Below the pieces are notes generated by a model. The model had not been told where the DNA came from. It saw nothing but the letters and a program-made list of their open reading frames with translations, and searched no databases. This document shows, piece by piece, positions 14,271 through 39,017 of a stretch of DNA of 47,482 bases. Both the position numbers and the translations under genes were made by a program. Numbering within the stretch: the stretch's first letter is position 1; each line of letters opens with the position of its first letter. The stretch lies in contig JAGDXS010000006.1 of the NCBI GenBank assembly GCA_023261755.1, positions 1 through 47,482 of the forward strand, read 5' to 3'. The stretch is from Thermoplasmata archaeon. Its GTDB lineage: Archaea > Thermoplasmatota > Thermoplasmata > Thermoplasmatales > ARK-15.

Positions 14271-15404
14271 TCACTTTAACAGTTCCCTGGCTATAACAAG
14301 CTTCTGTATTTCAGATGTCCCCTCATAAATTTCTGTTATTTTTGCGTCCCTGTAGAACCTTTCCACATCAAAATCCTCTATGAAACCATAACCACCATGC
14401 ACTTGTACAGCAAACCTTGATGCATCCATGGCCACCTTGCTTGAATAATACTTTGCCATACTTGCCTCCTTTATCAATGGCAAATGATTGTCAGCCCTCA
14501 TGGCAGCATCGTATACAAGAAGTCTAGCTGCCTCTAACTGAGTGGCTATTTCAGAGAGTGTGAACTGAAGACCCTGAAATTCTGCAATTTTCTTACCAAA
14601 TGCCTCGCGCTGTTTCATGTATTCAATGCTCTTTTCAACCGATGCCTGCGCTATACCCAATGCCTGTGCACCTATGCCTATCCTTCCCATGTTTAGTGTA
14701 TTCATAGCGATATAAAATCCCTTACCAATTTCACCTAACATATTTTCCTCTGGAACGATAACATTTTCAAGTACAAGTTCTGCTGTACTTGAACCTCTCA
14801 CTCCCAATTTTTTATAATCCTCACCTACTTTAAATCCATCTGTGTCTCTTTCAACAACGAATGCTGTAATTCCCTCATGCCTCTTTTTTTCAATGGATGT
14901 TCGAGCGAATACAACAAAAACTTTTGCGTGGTTAGCATTTGTTATGAAGAATTTGCTTCCATTCAAAATATATTCATCCCCTTGCCTTTCTGCCTTAAGC
15001 TGAACGTTTGCAGCATCTGACCCTGCCTGTGGTTCTGTTAATGCATATCCACCTATGTATTCCCCAGAACAGAGTTTTGGCAAATACTTTTTCTTTAGAT
15101 ATTCTGAACCCCAAGTGAAAATGGGATATTCAACAAGGCCATTTTGAACATCCATTGCCACAGATACGGATGGTGAAATTCTGGCAAGTTCTTCAAGGAT
15201 AATCACATAGCTCAATGTATCAAATCCTGAACCTCCATATTCTTGAGGAATTATCACACCGGTAAAACCAATCTTTCCCAACTCATCATAAAGATTTCTT
15301 GGTATTGTTTTTTCCTCGATTGTTTTATTCATTGGCGCAATATACTTTTCTGCAAAATTCCTTGCTAGATTTCTGATGAGTTGATAATCTTCCTTTAAAA
15401 TCAC
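14271..15404 (-). CDS. Acyl-CoA dehydrogenase (mutase operon)
   Basis: A 377-residue FAD enzyme of the acyl-CoA dehydrogenase family. [14 protein letters not shown] is the FAD/substrate signature, [11 protein letters not shown] the C-terminal signature, and E361 in YEGTSEIQ the catalytic base in the position used by short- and medium-chain enzymes. It makes the 2,3-enoyl-CoA and passes electrons to an ETF-like acceptor. It is the first gene of the mutase operon, which suggests that its substrate is the mutase product or substrate, for example butyryl-CoA or isobutyryl-CoA. The start is GTG at 15404, supported by GGTGA four nt upstream; the next in-frame Met is residue 25. Confidence 0.93.
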
Positions 15405-31130: not shown

Positions 31131-31535
31131 ATGGATGATAAATATGATTTCTTAAAATCAATAATTGAGATGGATCCATTCCTTAAGCACGTTGGAATCA
31201 AGGTAATTTCTCTAGAAGACGGATATGCTAAATTATCCATGGAATTTAGAGAGGAAATAACAAGGCTTGGAAACATTGCCAATGGCGGAGCTATTGCAAC
31301 CCTTGCAGATGCTGCAGGTGGAGCTTCAGTTCTTACATTACTTTCAGGAAAAAACCATGTGACAATTTCCCTAAATATGGAATATTTAGAGCCTGTAGAA
31401 AACGGACCTGTTATAGGAGAGGGAAAAATAGAAAGAAAAGGAAAGCATTTAATTTTCTCATCCATCAACATTTTTGATGGAAATGGAAAACTCTGCGCAC
31501 ATGCCCAGGGTATATATTTCCTTAAAGATTTTTAA
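31131..31535 (+). CDS. PaaI-type hotdog thioesterase
   Basis: A 134-residue protein of the PaaI thioesterase group. MDPFLKHVGIKVISLEDGYA is the usual N-terminal pattern. GNIANGGAIATLADAAGGAS (about residues 45-64) contains the Asn-Gly-Gly oxyanion loop and the catalytic Asp helix, and HVTISLNMEYLEPV the long hotdog strand. These enzymes hydrolyse aryl- or acyl-CoA that would otherwise trap CoA. A TTTAAAAAT box at 31102-31110 lies about 25 nt before the ATG, so it is probably leaderless. It is convergent with the beta-oxidation operon, ending one nt from it. Confidence 0.88.
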   Translation: MDDKYDFLKSIIEMDPFLKHVGIKVISLEDGYAKLSMEFREEITRLGNIANGGAIATLADAAGGASVLTLLSGKNHVTISLNMEYLEPVENGPVIGEGKIERKGKHLIFSSINIFDGNGKLCAHAQGIYFLKDF

Positions 31536-31536
31536 T

Positions 31537-32577
31537 TTATATCCACCCAGCCTTTGATTCAAATATAAGTTCTGCTAATTTTATCTTGTCCTTTAATGAA
31601 TGTCCTCCAACTATTGATAGAAACATGGCATCCCTATAGAATTTCTCCACACCAAAATCCATTAGATATCCATAGCCACCATGAACCTGGAGAGCAAGCT
31701 TCGACGTCCTTCTAGCAAAATCCAATGCAATCGTTTTTATCATCAATTCCTTCTTAAGATCTTTCTGGCCTTCAGCAACACTTATTAAATGTGAATTCAG
31801 GGAATCTAGCTCAGAATAAGCCTGGGACATATTAAATGCAAGGGGCTGAAAATCTTTCAGTTTATGTAGAAATGCATCTCTTTCCTTGGCATAGGAAATT
31901 GCCTTTGAAAGTGCCCCATTTGCTATACCTATTGCTATTGCTGCAACTGGAAGATGTATATCATCTATGATATCATCCAATTTTGTGCTTAGTTTTTTGA
32001 ATTTTTCTGAGTTGAATTTAATGGGTGAGAATGCTACTCCTCTAAATCCAAGTTGCTCGTGAGCTGGCAGTTTTTCAAACCCAGATTCGATTAAGTACAA
32101 AGATTCCTCTTCTTCAATATTCACTATGAATATATCACCTGATGAATTGAATACAGCGTTCATAACGCCCTCTATTCTATTTTCTTTTTTAGTAATGTGT
32201 CCAGGATCAAGTATGTTCAACCTTGTTGAATATGCAAGAGATCCTGACATTTTTCCTGATGCTATTTTTGATATTATTTCTAAATTATTATCATTCATTA
32301 GGGATTTAATTACAAGTGAATTCTGCAAAAATATGTAAAACGCAGCAGATGGGCTGGCGGATGCAATTTCTCTTAAAAGTATTGTATAACCAAGTCTATC
32401 AAGATTTGCTCCTCCGGTCTCTAATGGTGCAAGTGCTCCTAGGAAGCCCTGTGATGCAAGTTTATTCTTAAGATCAACGCTTAATCCTTCAATTTCTATA
32501 TTTTTGTTCACTGGCTCAATTTCTTTTTGTGAAAATTCTCTCAATACAGATTCTAGAACCTTATGTTCTTCATCCAT
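31537..32577 (-). CDS. Degenerate acyl-CoA dehydrogenase homologue, probable non-catalytic partner
   Basis: A 346-residue member of the acyl-CoA dehydrogenase family that lacks active-site parts. The fold is recognisable from GFLGALAPLETGGANLDRLG near the N-terminus and from the C-terminal LALQVHGGYGYLMDFGVEKF. The catalytic Glu motif (YEGTSEI in the intact paralogue at 14271) is VGGHSLK at 323-329, with Gly324 where Glu belongs. The TEP-x-AGSD signature is replaced by an unrelated stretch, LAYSTRLNILDPG. It follows an intact acyl-CoA dehydrogenase by 2 nt, so a mixed complex like the two-gene acyl-CoA dehydrogenases of steroid-degrading actinobacteria is possible. It is a full-length frame without stops, so not an obvious pseudogene. 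Confidence 0.85.
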   Translation of the reverse strand: MDEEHKVLESVLREFSQKEIEPVNKNIEIEGLSVDLKNKLASQGFLGALAPLETGGANLDRLGYTILLREIASASPSAAFYIFLQNSLVIKSLMNDNNLEIISKIASGKMSGSLAYSTRLNILDPGHITKKENRIEGVMNAVFNSSGDIFIVNIEEEESLYLIESGFEKLPAHEQLGFRGVAFSPIKFNSEKFKKLSTKLDDIIDDIHLPVAAIAIGIANGALSKAISYAKERDAFLHKLKDFQPLAFNMSQAYSELDSLNSHLISVAEGQKDLKKELMIKTIALDFARRTSKLALQVHGGYGYLMDFGVEKFYRDAMFLSIVGGHSLKDKIKLAELIFESKAGWI

Positions 32578-32579
32578 GT

Positions 32580-33701
32580 TTAATCACTCTCCAGCTTTTT
32601 CATTAACATTCTGTATATGGTCAACTCTTCTATCTCGCTTGATCCTTCCCAGATTTCGTTAATTTTAGCATCTCTAAACATCCTTTCAAGTGAAGTTAAA
32701 GCACCATCCATGCCTGTTGCAAGAAGCGCCTTTTCAGTAGCATACGTACCTGTCTCAGCAGCATAATATTTTGCCATGCTTGTTAAAACTGGATCTGGAT
32801 TGAATTGAAATAGGAAAGACGCTGCCTTATATGTGATGAGCCTAGCTGCCTCAATCCTCGTGGCTATTTCGGCTATAGTGAATTGCGTACCTTCCATAGA
32901 TGAAAATGCCTTGTCCTTTTTTGCCTTTTCAACTATTATATCAAGTGCTCCCTGTGCTATGCCTATCGCCATCGCTGCCACATAAATCCTTGAAATGTTG
33001 AAAAAGTTCATGGCATAATAGAAACCTTTTCCCTCTTCTCCTAAAAGATTTTCCTTTGGTACCTTTACATTATCGAAAATCACTTCTGCAGTATCTGATG
33101 CCCTCATTCCCATTTTGCCATATAGCTTATTTGTTGAAACTCCAGGCCACTTAGTTTCAACAATTACCATTGACATGTTATGATGCCTTTTCTGTTCCGA
33201 TGGTACAGGTCCAGATCTCGCCACAACCACAAGCTGATCCGCTATCGTACCATTTGTAATGAACATTTTGGATCCATTTAAGATGTATGACCCATCTGGT
33301 TGCTTGTCAAGCTTTGATGCTATACCAGCAACATCGCTACCTGCAACGGGCTCAGTAACAGCAAAACCCATTATCCTTTCTCCTCTAAGTACAGGCTCAA
33401 GATATTTTTTCTTCTGCTCATCATTTCCAAGCAAAAGAATATTCTCGTTACCAAAGAATGGTGCAAATATTGAAAATCCCAGGCCTGGATCGACTCTGAA
33501 CAGTTCTTCTATGGTGATGAGCAAATCCCAATAGTTGCCATAATTTAATATTCCTTCTTCCATTGCCTTCTTCCTTATTTCAAATGGGAATTTTTCATGC
33601 TCATCATAGTACCTTTTCTTTTCATCTGCAAATTCTCTCAGGGCAAATGCCCTGACAACTTTTCTTTTTTCCTCTAATTCAGGAGGTAATGAAAAATCCA
33701 T
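32580..33701 (-). CDS. Acyl-CoA dehydrogenase
   Basis: A 373-residue FAD-dependent enzyme. AVTEPVAGSDVAG is the FAD/substrate signature, NGSKMFITNG follows, and E352 in IWEGSSEIEEL is the catalytic base. It begins fatty-acyl-CoA breakdown by forming the trans-2-enoyl-CoA and gives electrons to an ETF. The end of the protein (from about 320, ALLATGMDGALTSLERMFRD) lacks the usual QVHGGYG stretch, an uncommon variation. It is the fourth gene of the beta-oxidation operon, 3 nt after thiolase, and precedes the degenerate homologue by 2 nt. Confidence 0.93.
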   Translation of the reverse strand: MDFSLPPELEEKRKVVRAFALREFADEKKRYYDEHEKFPFEIRKKAMEEGILNYGNYWDLLITIEELFRVDPGLGFSIFAPFFGNENILLLGNDEQKKKYLEPVLRGERIMGFAVTEPVAGSDVAGIASKLDKQPDGSYILNGSKMFITNGTIADQLVVVARSGPVPSEQKRHHNMSMVIVETKWPGVSTNKLYGKMGMRASDTAEVIFDNVKVPKENLLGEEGKGFYYAMNFFNISRIYVAAMAIGIAQGALDIIVEKAKKDKAFSSMEGTQFTIAEIATRIEAARLITYKAASFLFQFNPDPVLTSMAKYYAAETGTYATEKALLATGMDGALTSLERMFRDAKINEIWEGSSEIEELTIYRMLMKKLESD

Positions 33702-33704
33702 ACA

Positions 33705-34889
33705 TCACACCCTCTCAAGTATTGTGGCGTAGCCCTGGCCTCCACCAACGCATAGCGTGGCGAGACCATACCTCGCATTTTTCTCCTTTAAAATTCTTGC
33801 CAAAGTTCCTGTAATTCTTGCTCCTGAAGCTCCAAGTGGATGGCCTATTGATATGCCGCCGCCATGAATATTCACTCTATTCATATCTATTCCAAGCTTC
33901 TTTATTGCATTTAATGGTACCACAGCGAATGCTTCATTTATTTCCCAGTAATCTATGTCATCAACCTTCAACTTTGCTCTTTCTAGAGCTCTCTTTGATG
34001 CAGGTACTGGTCCTTCACCCATGATACTTGGGTCTACACCCGCCCATCCAAATGATACTATTCTGGCCATGGGTTTAAGGCCATATTCATCCATAGTTTT
34101 TTCATTCATTAACAAGGTCATTGATGCTCCTGCATTCAATGGTGATGAGTTTCCAGCAGTTATTACACCATCAGGTTTAAATGCAGGTGGTAACTTTTTA
34201 ATCTGTTCTAGAGTTGTATCTGGCCTTATACTTTGATCTTTATCAACAGTTATCATTTCACCGTTGTATTCAACTTGGACTGGCATGATTTCTCCCTTAA
34301 ACCATCCATTTTGGAGCGCTTCTCCAGCTAGTTTATGGCTTCTTAAGGAGAATTCATCCATCTCCTCCTTTGAAATGCCAGATACTTCGGCCAATTTTTC
34401 TGCTGTTAATCCCATACTGTATCCAATGTTCATTTGGTATTTCATGTACTCTGGCCTTACCAACAGTTTGTAATTCACAGCAATATGCGGATTATTGCCT
34501 AATGGTACATGTGTCATATGCTCCATACCGCCTGCCAATGCAATGTCAGAATTTCCAGTCATAATTTCCCAAGAGCCTATGGCCATTGCTACCATTGATG
34601 ATGAGCAAGCTCTGTCAACAGCCATTGCTGGAACCTCTACTGGTAAACCAGCAAGGAATATGGGATGCCTTCCACCGTAAAGCCAGTTTTCATCTGCTTG
34701 TAAAGCACAACCTGTTATTACATCACCTATCCTTAGTGGATCTATGTTATTTCTACCTATGATTTCTTTAAGTAACATGGCTACAGCATCATCCATCCTG
34801 AGGGAATTAAAAACATCCCTTTCAGGCTCATTTGGTCTAGATCTAGAAAATGGTGTCCTAACAAAATCAACTAAATATACATCCTGCAT
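33705..34889 (-). CDS. Thiolase (acetyl-CoA C-acyltransferase)
   Basis: A 394-residue thiolase with the full catalytic set: C95 in DRACSSSMV, H350 in ISIGHPLGASGAR and C380 in LCVGGGQG. It is a canonical degradative/biosynthetic thiolase and not the SCPx-like archaeal type lacking the second Cys. It splits 3-ketoacyl-CoA with CoA, including acetoacetyl-CoA. The gene is tightly packed between the HAD/ECH fusion (2 nt) and the acyl-CoA dehydrogenase (3 nt), so it makes the last step of the encoded cycle. Chain-length preference cannot be told. Confidence 0.95.
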   Translation of the reverse strand: MQDVYLVDFVRTPFSRSRPNEPERDVFNSLRMDDAVAMLLKEIIGRNNIDPLRIGDVITGCALQADENWLYGGRHPIFLAGLPVEVPAMAVDRACSSSMVAMAIGSWEIMTGNSDIALAGGMEHMTHVPLGNNPHIAVNYKLLVRPEYMKYQMNIGYSMGLTAEKLAEVSGISKEEMDEFSLRSHKLAGEALQNGWFKGEIMPVQVEYNGEMITVDKDQSIRPDTTLEQIKKLPPAFKPDGVITAGNSSPLNAGASMTLLMNEKTMDEYGLKPMARIVSFGWAGVDPSIMGEGPVPASKRALERAKLKVDDIDYWEINEAFAVVPLNAIKKLGIDMNRVNIHGGGISIGHPLGASGARITGTLARILKEKNARYGLATLCVGGGQGYATILERV

Positions 34890-34891
34890 AT

Positions 34892-36883
34892 TTATCTCCC
34901 CTTATATTCAGGTTTTTTCTTTTGAAGGAATGAGGATATGCCTTCCTTAAGATCCTCCGTGGAATATGCAACTCCTGCTGCAAATGATTCCATCTCCAAA
35001 CCTATGTCCATTGGTACTTCTGTACCTTTATTCAATAGCCTTTTTGAAAGATACATTGCTATAGGTGCCGAAGTATTTGCTATATTCTTAGCAAATTCAA
35101 TTGCTTCATTGTCAGGATCCTTGAATATTCTATTTATAATTCCCATTGAAAAGGCTTCCTTACCCGTGATCCTCTGACCTGTAACTATAAGTTCCATAGC
35201 TTTTCCAAGACCCGCAACTCTGGCTAGCTTCTGTGATCCTCCCCATGCTGGGATTAATCCCAATGTTACTTCTGGAAAACCTACCTGCACATCTTCCGTA
35301 CCAACTCTTAAATCACAAGCAAGAGATAATTCAAATCCACCTCCAAGTGCATATCCCTTCATTACAGCAATTGTCAATTTCGGCATTTCAGACAGAAGCC
35401 TGAAAATCCTCTCTCCTTTTCTTGAAAATTCAAGGAACTGGAAACTGCTAGCAAAATATTGTGATAAGTCTGCACCAGCAGAAAATGTATTTCCCTGGCC
35501 TGTAATTACTACAACATATGTTTCATTATCATTCCATAGCATCTTTATTGCTTTTTCTAAATCTTCCAAGAGTTCATCATTTATTGTATTGTGTTTAGGT
35601 CTGTTTAAAATGATCCTCGCCACCTTAAATGGATATTTTTCAATTATTACTGTGTTTAGATTTTCTGATGATGATTTTGCCTGTTCTTTAACTACCTTCT
35701 CTTCCTTCTTTTCTTCTTTCTTTTTCAATCTTCCGTCAATTGCTTCCCTCATTTTTCCATTTTTAATAGATTCCGCAGGTTCAAAAACTGAGCAGTTGAA
35801 TCTTTTTGCAAGTGTTTCTAGCTTTGCTTTTACTTCTGCATTGGTTAAACTCTTTGCAACAGATATTGGGCCGAATGCCCTATTTAGGCCATATTTTACT
35901 CCTGTCTCAATGTCCTCAGGTGAAGCAACCCCTTCTTCAATCAATTTAACTGATTCGTTTATCTCAACTGCAAATATATCCATCAGGTCTACTTTGTTAG
36001 TTGCTTTCTTAGTATCTATTACAGGTCTTCCAGATGACCAGTCATAAAAGCCTTTTCCAGTCTTTTTACCAAGATATTTTTTATTGTAAAGTTCTTCGTA
36101 TACTTTGCATTTGCCATAATCTGGATTTAAAGTTTTAGCATAATATTCCATTGAATGGTAAACAACATCTATGCCAACGTAATCTATCAATTCATATGGG
36201 CCCATTGGCATGCCTTGCATCTTTGCGAATGCATCAATTTCTTCTGGCGAGGCTACTTTATTTTCAATCAAAAGACAAAATAGTAGCATGTCTGGAGCAT
36301 TTATCCTGTTTACAATGAAACCTGGTGAATCCTTCATTACTTTTACAGGTATTTTACCTATTCTCTTTACAAGATCATACAATAATGAAATTACATCATC
36401 TGATGTTTCTTCACCTTTTATAACTTCCACGAGTTTCATCACGACAGGGGGATTAAAGAAATGCAAACCTGCTACCCTATCCCTCACTGTAATATTTTTT
36501 GCAATATCCGTAATCCTTATGTTTGATGTATTGCTCGTAAGGATTGTATCTTTTCTGGTATATTTTTCCAAATCTTGGAAAATCTTTCTCTTGAGATCTT
36601 CAATCTCCGGTACGGCTTCTATAACCAGATCAACATCCTTTACCGCAGGCTCAATTTCTGTATATACTTTAATCCTTGAAAGAACATCACTTACTGATGA
36701 TTGGCCTAGTGATCCCTTTTTTGAAAGCTTCTCAAGACTATCCCTTATTTCATTCATTGCCTTGTCTAGCATTTCTTTTGATATGTCCTCAATATTTACT
36801 TCATAGCCATTTACGGCAAAAACTTCTGCTATACCGTGACCCATCTCCCCTGAACCTATCACCGCAATCTTTCTGATTTCCAT
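34892..36883 (-). CDS. 3-hydroxyacyl-CoA dehydrogenase / enoyl-CoA hydratase fusion
   Basis: A 663-residue bifunctional protein. Residues 1 to about 385 are a 3-hydroxyacyl-CoA dehydrogenase: IAVIGSGEMGHGIAEVF is the NAD site, TSNTSNIRITDIA and GLHFFNPPVVMKLVEVIKG the catalytic region. A Lys/Glu-rich linker (about 385-402) joins it to a crotonase domain with the oxyanion segment FSAGADLSQY and the catalytic Glu pair in YALGGGFELSLACD and FPEVTLGLIP. The order is dehydrogenase first, the reverse of bacterial FadB and as in archaeal crotonyl-CoA hydratase/3-hydroxybutyryl-CoA dehydrogenases. It performs two successive beta-oxidation steps. Confidence 0.96.
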   Translation of the reverse strand: MEIRKIAVIGSGEMGHGIAEVFAVNGYEVNIEDISKEMLDKAMNEIRDSLEKLSKKGSLGQSSVSDVLSRIKVYTEIEPAVKDVDLVIEAVPEIEDLKRKIFQDLEKYTRKDTILTSNTSNIRITDIAKNITVRDRVAGLHFFNPPVVMKLVEVIKGEETSDDVISLLYDLVKRIGKIPVKVMKDSPGFIVNRINAPDMLLFCLLIENKVASPEEIDAFAKMQGMPMGPYELIDYVGIDVVYHSMEYYAKTLNPDYGKCKVYEELYNKKYLGKKTGKGFYDWSSGRPVIDTKKATNKVDLMDIFAVEINESVKLIEEGVASPEDIETGVKYGLNRAFGPISVAKSLTNAEVKAKLETLAKRFNCSVFEPAESIKNGKMREAIDGRLKKKEEKKEEKVVKEQAKSSSENLNTVIIEKYPFKVARIILNRPKHNTINDELLEDLEKAIKMLWNDNETYVVVITGQGNTFSAGADLSQYFASSFQFLEFSRKGERIFRLLSEMPKLTIAVMKGYALGGGFELSLACDLRVGTEDVQVGFPEVTLGLIPAWGGSQKLARVAGLGKAMELIVTGQRITGKEAFSMGIINRIFKDPDNEAIEFAKNIANTSAPIAMYLSKRLLNKGTEVPMDIGLEMESFAAGVAYSTEDLKEGISSFLQKKKPEYKGR

Positions 36884-36889
36884 AACACA

Positions 36890-37225
36890 TCACTTAATTT
36901 TTTTAATTACATTCACAAGCTTTTGTGCAAGAAATGGATCTCCTTTAATTTTTAATTTTCCAGAGAAAAATGCTTGAACTCCATCAAGTTTGCCTTCTAT
37001 TATAGCCTGAAGATCTTCCTCTTTTGCTGTTAAAACAACTGTTGGGGATGCATGTTCGCCCTGCGTAAGCACTGCTGACCCATCTTCCTTAAAGCTAAGG
37101 TAAAATGAATCCCCTAGGTCATTCTTAAACTGAAAAATGCTTGTTGTTCCTTTTAGTTCACTTTTCAAAGCTGAATTCGCATTCAGCTTGTTTACATAAT
37201 CATTTAAAACATCAAAAGATTTCAT
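36890..37225 (-). CDS. SCP2 sterol-carrier domain protein
   Basis: A 111-residue SCP2-fold protein: MKSFDVLNDYVNKLNANSAL at the start, then a beta-sheet pattern (SIFQFKNDLGDSFYLSFKEDGSAVL) and the C-terminal helix DGVQAFFSGKLKIKGDPFLAQKL, in which the KLKIKGD motif is typical of the family. SCP2 proteins bind acyl-CoA or lipids and may deliver them to beta-oxidation enzymes. It is the first gene of the beta-oxidation operon, 6 nt before the HAD/ECH fusion. The longest frame starts with TTG at 37231, but ATG at 37225 fits the TATA box. Confidence 0.88.
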   Translation of the reverse strand: MKSFDVLNDYVNKLNANSALKSELKGTTSIFQFKNDLGDSFYLSFKEDGSAVLTQGEHASPTVVLTAKEEDLQAIIEGKLDGVQAFFSGKLKIKGDPFLAQKLVNVIKKIK

Positions 37226-37232
37226 AAACAAC

Positions 37233-38612: not shown

Positions 38613-39017
38613 ATGGGCAACTTTATTTATAAATACCGTGTGGCCTGGGTGGATACTGATAATCTAGGAGTGGTGCATTTTTCAAATTATTTTAGAATTT
38701 GTGAAAGAGCAGAGGAGGAATTCATGAATTCTATAAATATACCATTTGATGCAACAAACAGTATTTCAATGCCTAGGGTAAAGGCAGAATGTAATTATAA
38801 ATTTCCATTAAGATTCAATGAAATTGCAGAGGTAACTATCAACGTGAAAGAATTGGGTAAAAAGCATATCAAATATGAATACCAAATATATAATTCAACA
38901 CAGGGCAGGATTTCAGCCATTTGTGAAATAGTTGTTGTAGCTATAGATAAAAATTTTAAATCAATTTCAATACCTGAAGAAATTATAAAAATATATAAAA
39001 ATTATTTCAACCTATGA
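38613..39017 (+). CDS. 4-hydroxybenzoyl-CoA thioesterase family (YbgC-like) protein
   Basis: A 134-residue hotdog thioesterase. YRVAWVDTDNLGVVHFSNYF (about residues 8-27) is the family signature; its second Asp lies in the place of the catalytic Asp of 4HBT enzymes, and VVHFSNYF forms the central helix start. It probably hydrolyses short acyl- or aroyl-CoA esters in the cytoplasm. The promoter shares an element with that of the beta-oxidation operon, so it may be co-regulated to recycle CoA. Its 3' end overlaps a convergent MFS gene by 6 nt. The subfamily differs from the two other thioesterases in the window. Confidence 0.87.
   Translation: MGNFIYKYRVAWVDTDNLGVVHFSNYFRICERAEEEFMNSINIPFDATNSISMPRVKAECNYKFPLRFNEIAEVTINVKELGKKHIKYEYQIYNSTQGRISAICEIVVVAIDKNFKSISIPEEIIKIYKNYFNL

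Follow-up and report, generated by a model that had tools for sequence, protein, structure and literature searches.

The analysed window (the whole 47,482-nucleotide stretch of contig JAGDXS010000006.1, from a Thermoplasmata archaeon) carries two adjacent genes for acyl-CoA dehydrogenase (ACAD)-like proteins, referred to here as A and B, together with further genes of beta-oxidation. The coordinates originally given for both genes proved correct; to these can be added that both lie on the minus strand and that B is directly upstream of A, with 2 bases between them (33701–32580, then 32577–31537). The genes in question are as follows:

31537–32577, minus strand: gene A, putative non-catalytic (beta-type) ACAD subunit of 346 aa (Pfam Acyl-CoA_dh_1 and Acyl-CoA_dh_N)
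32580–33701, minus strand: gene B, putative catalytic (alpha-type) ACAD subunit of 373 aa (Pfam Acyl-CoA_dh_1, Acyl-CoA_dh_M and Acyl-CoA_dh_N)
33705–34889, minus strand: acetyl-CoA C-acyltransferase (thiolase), directly upstream of B (NCBIfam PRK06445, above cut-off)
34892–36883, minus strand: fused 3-hydroxyacyl-CoA dehydrogenase/enoyl-CoA hydratase, same operon as A and B (Pfam)
36890–37231, minus strand: SCP-2-like protein (sterol carrier/acyl-CoA binding fold), same operon as A and B (Pfam PF02036)

The original prediction had placed the pair in a beta-oxidation operon, and the thiolase and the fused dehydrogenase/hydratase are indeed encoded in the same operon, which the SCP-2-like gene adjoins within the same family. 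Given this gene content (thiolase, hydroxyacyl-CoA dehydrogenase/enoyl-CoA hydratase and SCP-2-like protein), the natural substrates of an enzyme formed by A and B are probably ordinary acyl-CoAs. Such an enzyme would carry out the first step of acyl-CoA beta-oxidation, the remaining steps being encoded in the same operon. Two hotdog-fold thioesterase genes (31131–31535 and 38613–39017, both plus strand) flank the operon on the opposite strand, and the former stays close to the B-A pair in several relatives.

A and B alike far exceeded the Pfam cut-offs for ACADs, and the Pfam middle (FAD/beta) domain gave no match in A. AlphaFold2 single-chain models built from 40-member alignments reached a mean pLDDT of 93.6 for A and 88.3 for B, with confidence lower in places in the model of B alone, and both models matched solved ACADs in Foldseek searches. 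Pfam, AlphaFold2 and Foldseek results taken together assign both proteins to the ACAD superfamily, characterised by N- and C-terminal helical domains and a middle beta domain. The closest sequence relatives of both are single-gene SCAD/MCAD-type ACADs (1ukw, CarC 6fah and Clostridioides difficile Bcd 5ol2), which resemble them in fold and share with B the position of the catalytic base.

The distribution of the pair was followed in 61 genomes (its own and 60 relatives), 41 of which contained an ACAD-like match. Co-occurrence in related genomes had been set beforehand as a test of the original prediction, and an adjacent B-A pair was present in 40 of these 41, the lone exception being a genome that is 52% complete. 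One genome carried two pairs, bringing the total to 41 pairs in 40 genomes, and no B without A was encountered among the relatives searched. B preceded A on the same strand in every pair, with a gap ranging from -70 to +5 nt and a single outlier locus, which is accounted for by a frameshift in A. The frameshift lies near the middle of A in the complete genome G024 (locus L084, 9750–10759); both halves look conserved, and its cause may be sequencing error, a real lesion or recoding. The thiolase was found directly upstream of B, in the order thiolase-B-A, at all loci holding enough upstream sequence (39/39).

Searching for related loci with the sequence of A alone returned nothing, whereas an alignment-based search did find matches. 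With the A profile, ordinary ACADs start at ~208 bits, and scores above 220 bits were regarded as A-type; across 293 genomes of the phylum, such scores were confined to the same order. The window itself holds a complete single-gene ACAD paralogue (14271–15404, minus strand), which is among the top-scoring ordinary ACADs with this profile (~208–214 bits). Pairs of the Thermoplasmatales type were also seen in two bins from elsewhere, one assigned to Thaumarchaeota (UBA164; L109, 4784–6999) and one to Euryarchaeota (CPBay; L110, 4884–7017), which could be explained by horizontal transfer or misbinning.

The two chains of a normal ACAD dimer share each FAD site: the isoalloxazine ring, the substrate and the catalytic Glu belong to one of them, while its neighbour binds the ADP end of FAD via Arg281, Phe284 and HGGYG. 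In terms of MCAD residues, the cis half of the site comprises the Thr, Glu, Gly, Ser and Asp of TExxGSD, the WIT motif, Arg256, Glu376 and Thr378, and the trans half comprises Arg281, Phe284, Gln349 and HGGYG. FAD is bound across the dimer interface of ACADs (PMC11153573). The corresponding segments of B and A, with their conservation over the 41 pairs, are listed below:

33333–33356, minus strand: B TEPVAGSD (residues 116–123), flavin/pyrophosphate contact of the cis half; T, E, G, S and D all present in each of the B sequences that cover this segment (40/40), absent from A
33249–33263, minus strand: B FITNG (residues 147–151), equivalent of the MCAD WIT motif; F in 40/40, T or S in 40/40 and N in 40/40 B, lost in A
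32988–32990, minus strand: B Arg238, equivalent of MCAD Arg256; R in 41/41 B and 0/41 A
32646–32648, minus strand: B Glu352, catalytic base at the MCAD Glu376 position; E in 41/41 B and 0/41 A
32886–32918, minus strand: B KDKAFSSMEGT (residues 262–272), counterpart of the Arg281/Phe284 segment, degenerate in B through loss of the trans ADP half; neither R nor F conserved
32691–32717, minus strand: B TGMDGALTS (residues 329–337), degenerate HGGYGY; H in 0/41, second G missing and two alignment columns deleted throughout (41/41)
31663–31683, minus strand: A HGGYGYL (residues 299–305), ADP half of the FAD site; HGGYG in 41/41 A
31870–31881, minus strand: A Arg233–Phe236, equivalents of MCAD Arg281 and Phe284; R and F in 41/41 A
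31597–31611, minus strand: A VGGHS (residues 323–327), lost catalytic Glu motif; Glu in 0/41 A, F being the commonest residue

All motif-level claims of the original prediction held at these positions: A has the ACAD fold and HGGYGYL, carries VGGHS in place of YEGTS and has YSTRLNILD where TEPxAGSD would stand, and B has Glu352 (within IWEGSS) and the TEPVAGSD signature, with TGMDGALTS replacing HGGYGY. The notion that the two proteins are complementary, each lacking what its partner keeps, was likewise found to apply residue by residue across the 41 pairs. Cis residues were retained in 40/40 or 41/41 B sequences, the equivalent of position 378 being Thr in 36 and Ser in 5, and no trans residue was conserved in B; in every pair, the boundary between kept and lost residues thus coincides with that between the halves of the FAD site. 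As expected of a split-FAD ACAD, the Glu and the flavin-ring site are on B, and the ADP-binding residues that B has lost are kept on A. Complete ACADs from the same genomes have both halves within one chain. Unlike 1ukw, 6fah and 5ol2, which are reported homo-oligomers with a whole FAD site per chain pair, A and B each have half. The possibility that A instead uses a catalytic Glu at the position of MCAD Thr255 was also considered and rejected, as no consistent Glu occurs there.

B orthologues, present in all 41 pairs, are 49–76% identical, and A evolves ~2–4 times faster than B. This faster rate, the loss of the catalytic Glu and the FAD signature from A, and the frameshift in G024 are what would be seen if A were a decaying duplicate, a pseudogene in progress. 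Nevertheless, A adjoins B in 41/41 pairs, retains 15 invariant columns among 40 sequences with identities down to 28%, and has a dN/dS well below 1 (~0.07–0.23 in comparisons with moderate synonymous change); A is under purifying selection, and on grounds of conservation and dN/dS we rejected the pseudogene reading, to which we assign a negligible probability. The exceptionless division of residues in 41 pairs, combined with the low dN/dS of A, means that the split reflects neither chance nor decay.

Very likely, B (alpha) and A (beta) are subunits of a single obligate hetero-oligomeric ACAD, most likely an alpha2beta2 complex with two FADs, its stoichiometry, FAD content and substrate all being predicted from sequence. 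In this enzyme, B would hold the isoalloxazine ring, the substrate and the catalytic Glu, and A would hold the ADP end of FAD via the equivalents of Arg281, Phe284 and HGGYG, while the mirror site, composed of the catalytic half of A and the ADP half of B, would be dead on both sides. With ring binding and catalysis assigned to B and the ADP task to A, one complete site would be formed per A-B dimer, and neither protein would be expected to function by itself. The two-gene heterotetramer with shared active sites that had been proposed for this locus is therefore a supported prediction, the support coming from co-occurrence of the genes and from reciprocal losses that map to the FAD site at the interface.

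It is also conceivable that B forms active homotetramers whose FAD site is modified, A being a distinct paralogue, regulatory or structural in role, that shares the operon by chance. Every catalytic residue is kept in B, B could bind FAD alone in some unusual way, which would speak against an obligate heteromer, and some genomes of one family (f3) encode a second alpha-like ACAD with no beta neighbour. The latter indicates that an alpha without an adjacent beta of its own can persist, and as such counts against the two-chain model. However, all trans ADP contacts have been lost in every B orthologue and exactly these are kept in A, where invariant equivalents of R281, F284 and HGGYG would be needless for a regulator, and B was never seen without A among the relatives searched. 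We consequently regard an active B homotetramer as highly improbable. Under the favoured two-chain model, B expressed alone would be expected to yield an inactive, FAD-poor protein, although annotators and biochemists would take B for the complete enzyme and A for a spare.

The solitary alpha-like ACAD of family f3 (L288, 7715–8848, and also L289–L294) is ~377 aa long and keeps TEPGAGSD and IYEGT, but not the R281/F284 and HGGYG segments. No beta-like neighbour was detected within ~7 kb, and in trees this protein branches with complete ACADs of Thermoplasma-type genomes. In f3 genomes, A might also serve this solitary protein.

A further difference between the two chains, beyond those noticed originally, concerns the region implicated in docking of the electron transfer flavoprotein (ETF). 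The MCAD pocket residues Leu102 and Leu104 presumably lie in the loop that joins helices C and D. Residues of this loop form part of the ETF pocket of MCAD (PMC11153573). B has lost about 10 residues of it:

33528–33542, minus strand: B YGNYW (residues 54–58), site of the helix C-D loop deletion; 10 alignment columns empty in 41/41 B but occupied in A
32395–32433, minus strand: A LAPLETGGANLDR (residues 49–61), helix C-D loop, retained in A and contributing to the ETF-docking pocket; occupied in all full-length A (40/40)

Since B lacks this loop, A probably also carries the ETF docking surface, and may be the ETF-facing subunit of the enzyme; ETF proteins are encoded by the same genome. Asp345 of C. 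difficile Bcd contacts ETF through an ionic interaction, and mutating this residue caused a drastic drop in activity (PMC5691135). In our numbering it follows HGGYGY; an Asp stands at the equivalent position in 40/41 A, and part of the segment bearing it has been lost from B. PMC5691135 is not uniform in how it distributes the docking site and the flavin over the Bcd chains, which makes the ETF part of the model weaker and leaves it a hypothesis.

Two-gene ACADs had been described in the original prediction as known from steroid-degrading actinobacteria, which is correct, except that they are not confined to that group and also occur as steroid-type pairs in Pseudomonadota and as PimCD-type pairs. 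ChsE4-ChsE5 (FadE26-FadE27) and ChsE1-ChsE2 (FadE28-FadE29) of Mycobacterium tuberculosis, both with solved structures, resemble the archaeal pair in being encoded by adjacent genes and in dividing into a Glu/flavin-ring chain and an ADP chain: the isoalloxazine is bound by the alpha chain, which also has the Glu and the substrate, and the ADP moiety by the beta chain (PMC11153573). The ChsE-type heterotetramer is essential and holds two FADs (PMC8399759). By analogy with the ChsE pairs and their relatives IpdE1-IpdE2, Scd1AB and ScdC1C2 in steroid degraders, two FADs per alpha2beta2 would be expected for A and B.

For comparison, we used eight Pseudomonadota regions with steroid-type pairs and two PimC-PimD pairs. 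The steroid-type pairs came from a search of 299 Pseudomonadota genomes with the IpdE2 model (NF050027), in which all matches were below its cut-off; A itself scored 25.5 bits against this cut-off of 450. PimC and PimD, the adjacently encoded large and small subunits of pimeloyl-CoA dehydrogenase (TIGR03204/TIGR03203), parallel B and A in that PimD keeps R281, F284 and HGGIG without the Glu, and PimC keeps SEPGSGSD and has lost HGGYG. A and B are far below the PimC and PimD cut-offs, and for PimD (TIGR03203) no match to A was present among the matches listed.

The same cis/trans split was observed in the steroid-type and the PimC-PimD pairs. However, the catalytic Glu is at the Thr255 (LCAD/IVD) position in 7/7 steroid-type alphas and 2/2 PimC, with Ala or Gly at 376 in all nine, whereas in archaeal B the Thr255 position is occupied by Ser or Thr, and the Glu is at 376, as in MCAD. 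The helix C-D loop is kept by both chains of the bacterial split pairs examined, PimC and PimD included, and deleted in archaeal B. Unlike the steroid-type systems, moreover, the archaeal operon is one of general beta-oxidation. The suggestion of an archaeal counterpart therefore stands as far as the split is concerned, but the different position of the catalytic base and the loss of the ETF loop mean that the pair is no simple counterpart of the bacterial ones.

The shared alpha/beta split would also fit a horizontally acquired, divergent offshoot of the bacterial steroid/PimCD split-ACAD lineage, with nothing newly evolved in the archaea, and quick trees left clades of A with bacterial beta and of B with bacterial alpha standing (p-AU 0.60–0.74, not rejected). 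In a careful tree, by contrast, B was placed among complete ACADs (support 100/98), and the clade of B with bacterial alpha had a p-AU of 0.068, short of rejection. Profile scores were also higher with complete ACADs than with the bacterial subunits, both for B (290–361 bits vs 100–142 with the alpha profile) and for A (97–190 bits vs 55–117 with the beta profile), and Glu is at 376 in B but at 255 in every bacterial alpha examined. Membership in the bacterial lineage thus appears unlikely. As B nests with complete ACADs, we consider an independent origin of the archaeal split likely, while the trees give no proof of it. Simple tandem duplication of A and B from each other was set aside; a clade of A with B was neither supported nor rejected (p-AU 0.36). 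We put forward more tentatively, as a plausible extension, that this independent split goes further than the bacterial ones, with catalysis and the flavin ring on B, and FAD anchoring and ETF docking on A. If so, oxidation and electron delivery would depend on different polypeptides.

Our literature search, which did not extend to subscription papers, turned up no description of an archaeal heteromeric ACAD, and the novelty of the archaeal pair is therefore provisional; split ACADs were known from steroid-degrading bacteria. If the model is correct, the obligate two-chain ACAD is not peculiar to steroid and dicarboxylate degradation by bacteria; it also operates, probably with a separate origin, in the general beta-oxidation of a whole archaeal order, that of acidophilic relatives of Thermoplasma. 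A and B would then illustrate cleanly how a homo-oligomer with interface-shared sites can, once duplicated, undergo reciprocal degeneration.

A different reciprocal split pair was noted in a Thaumarchaeota bin (ATL; L168, 5980–8369), with the gene order reversed (beta-like first). A search with the beta-like protein P0003 revealed no clear second case in 300 genomes of the phylum of L168, and a plasmid search with the same protein gave only ordinary ACADs among the matches listed. P0003 has HGGYG without the Glu or the TEP motif, and the catalytic chain P0004 has TEPGAGSD and EGT without HGGYG and keeps the C-D loop. The L168 pair would thus be an apparent repeat of such reciprocal degeneration in archaea.
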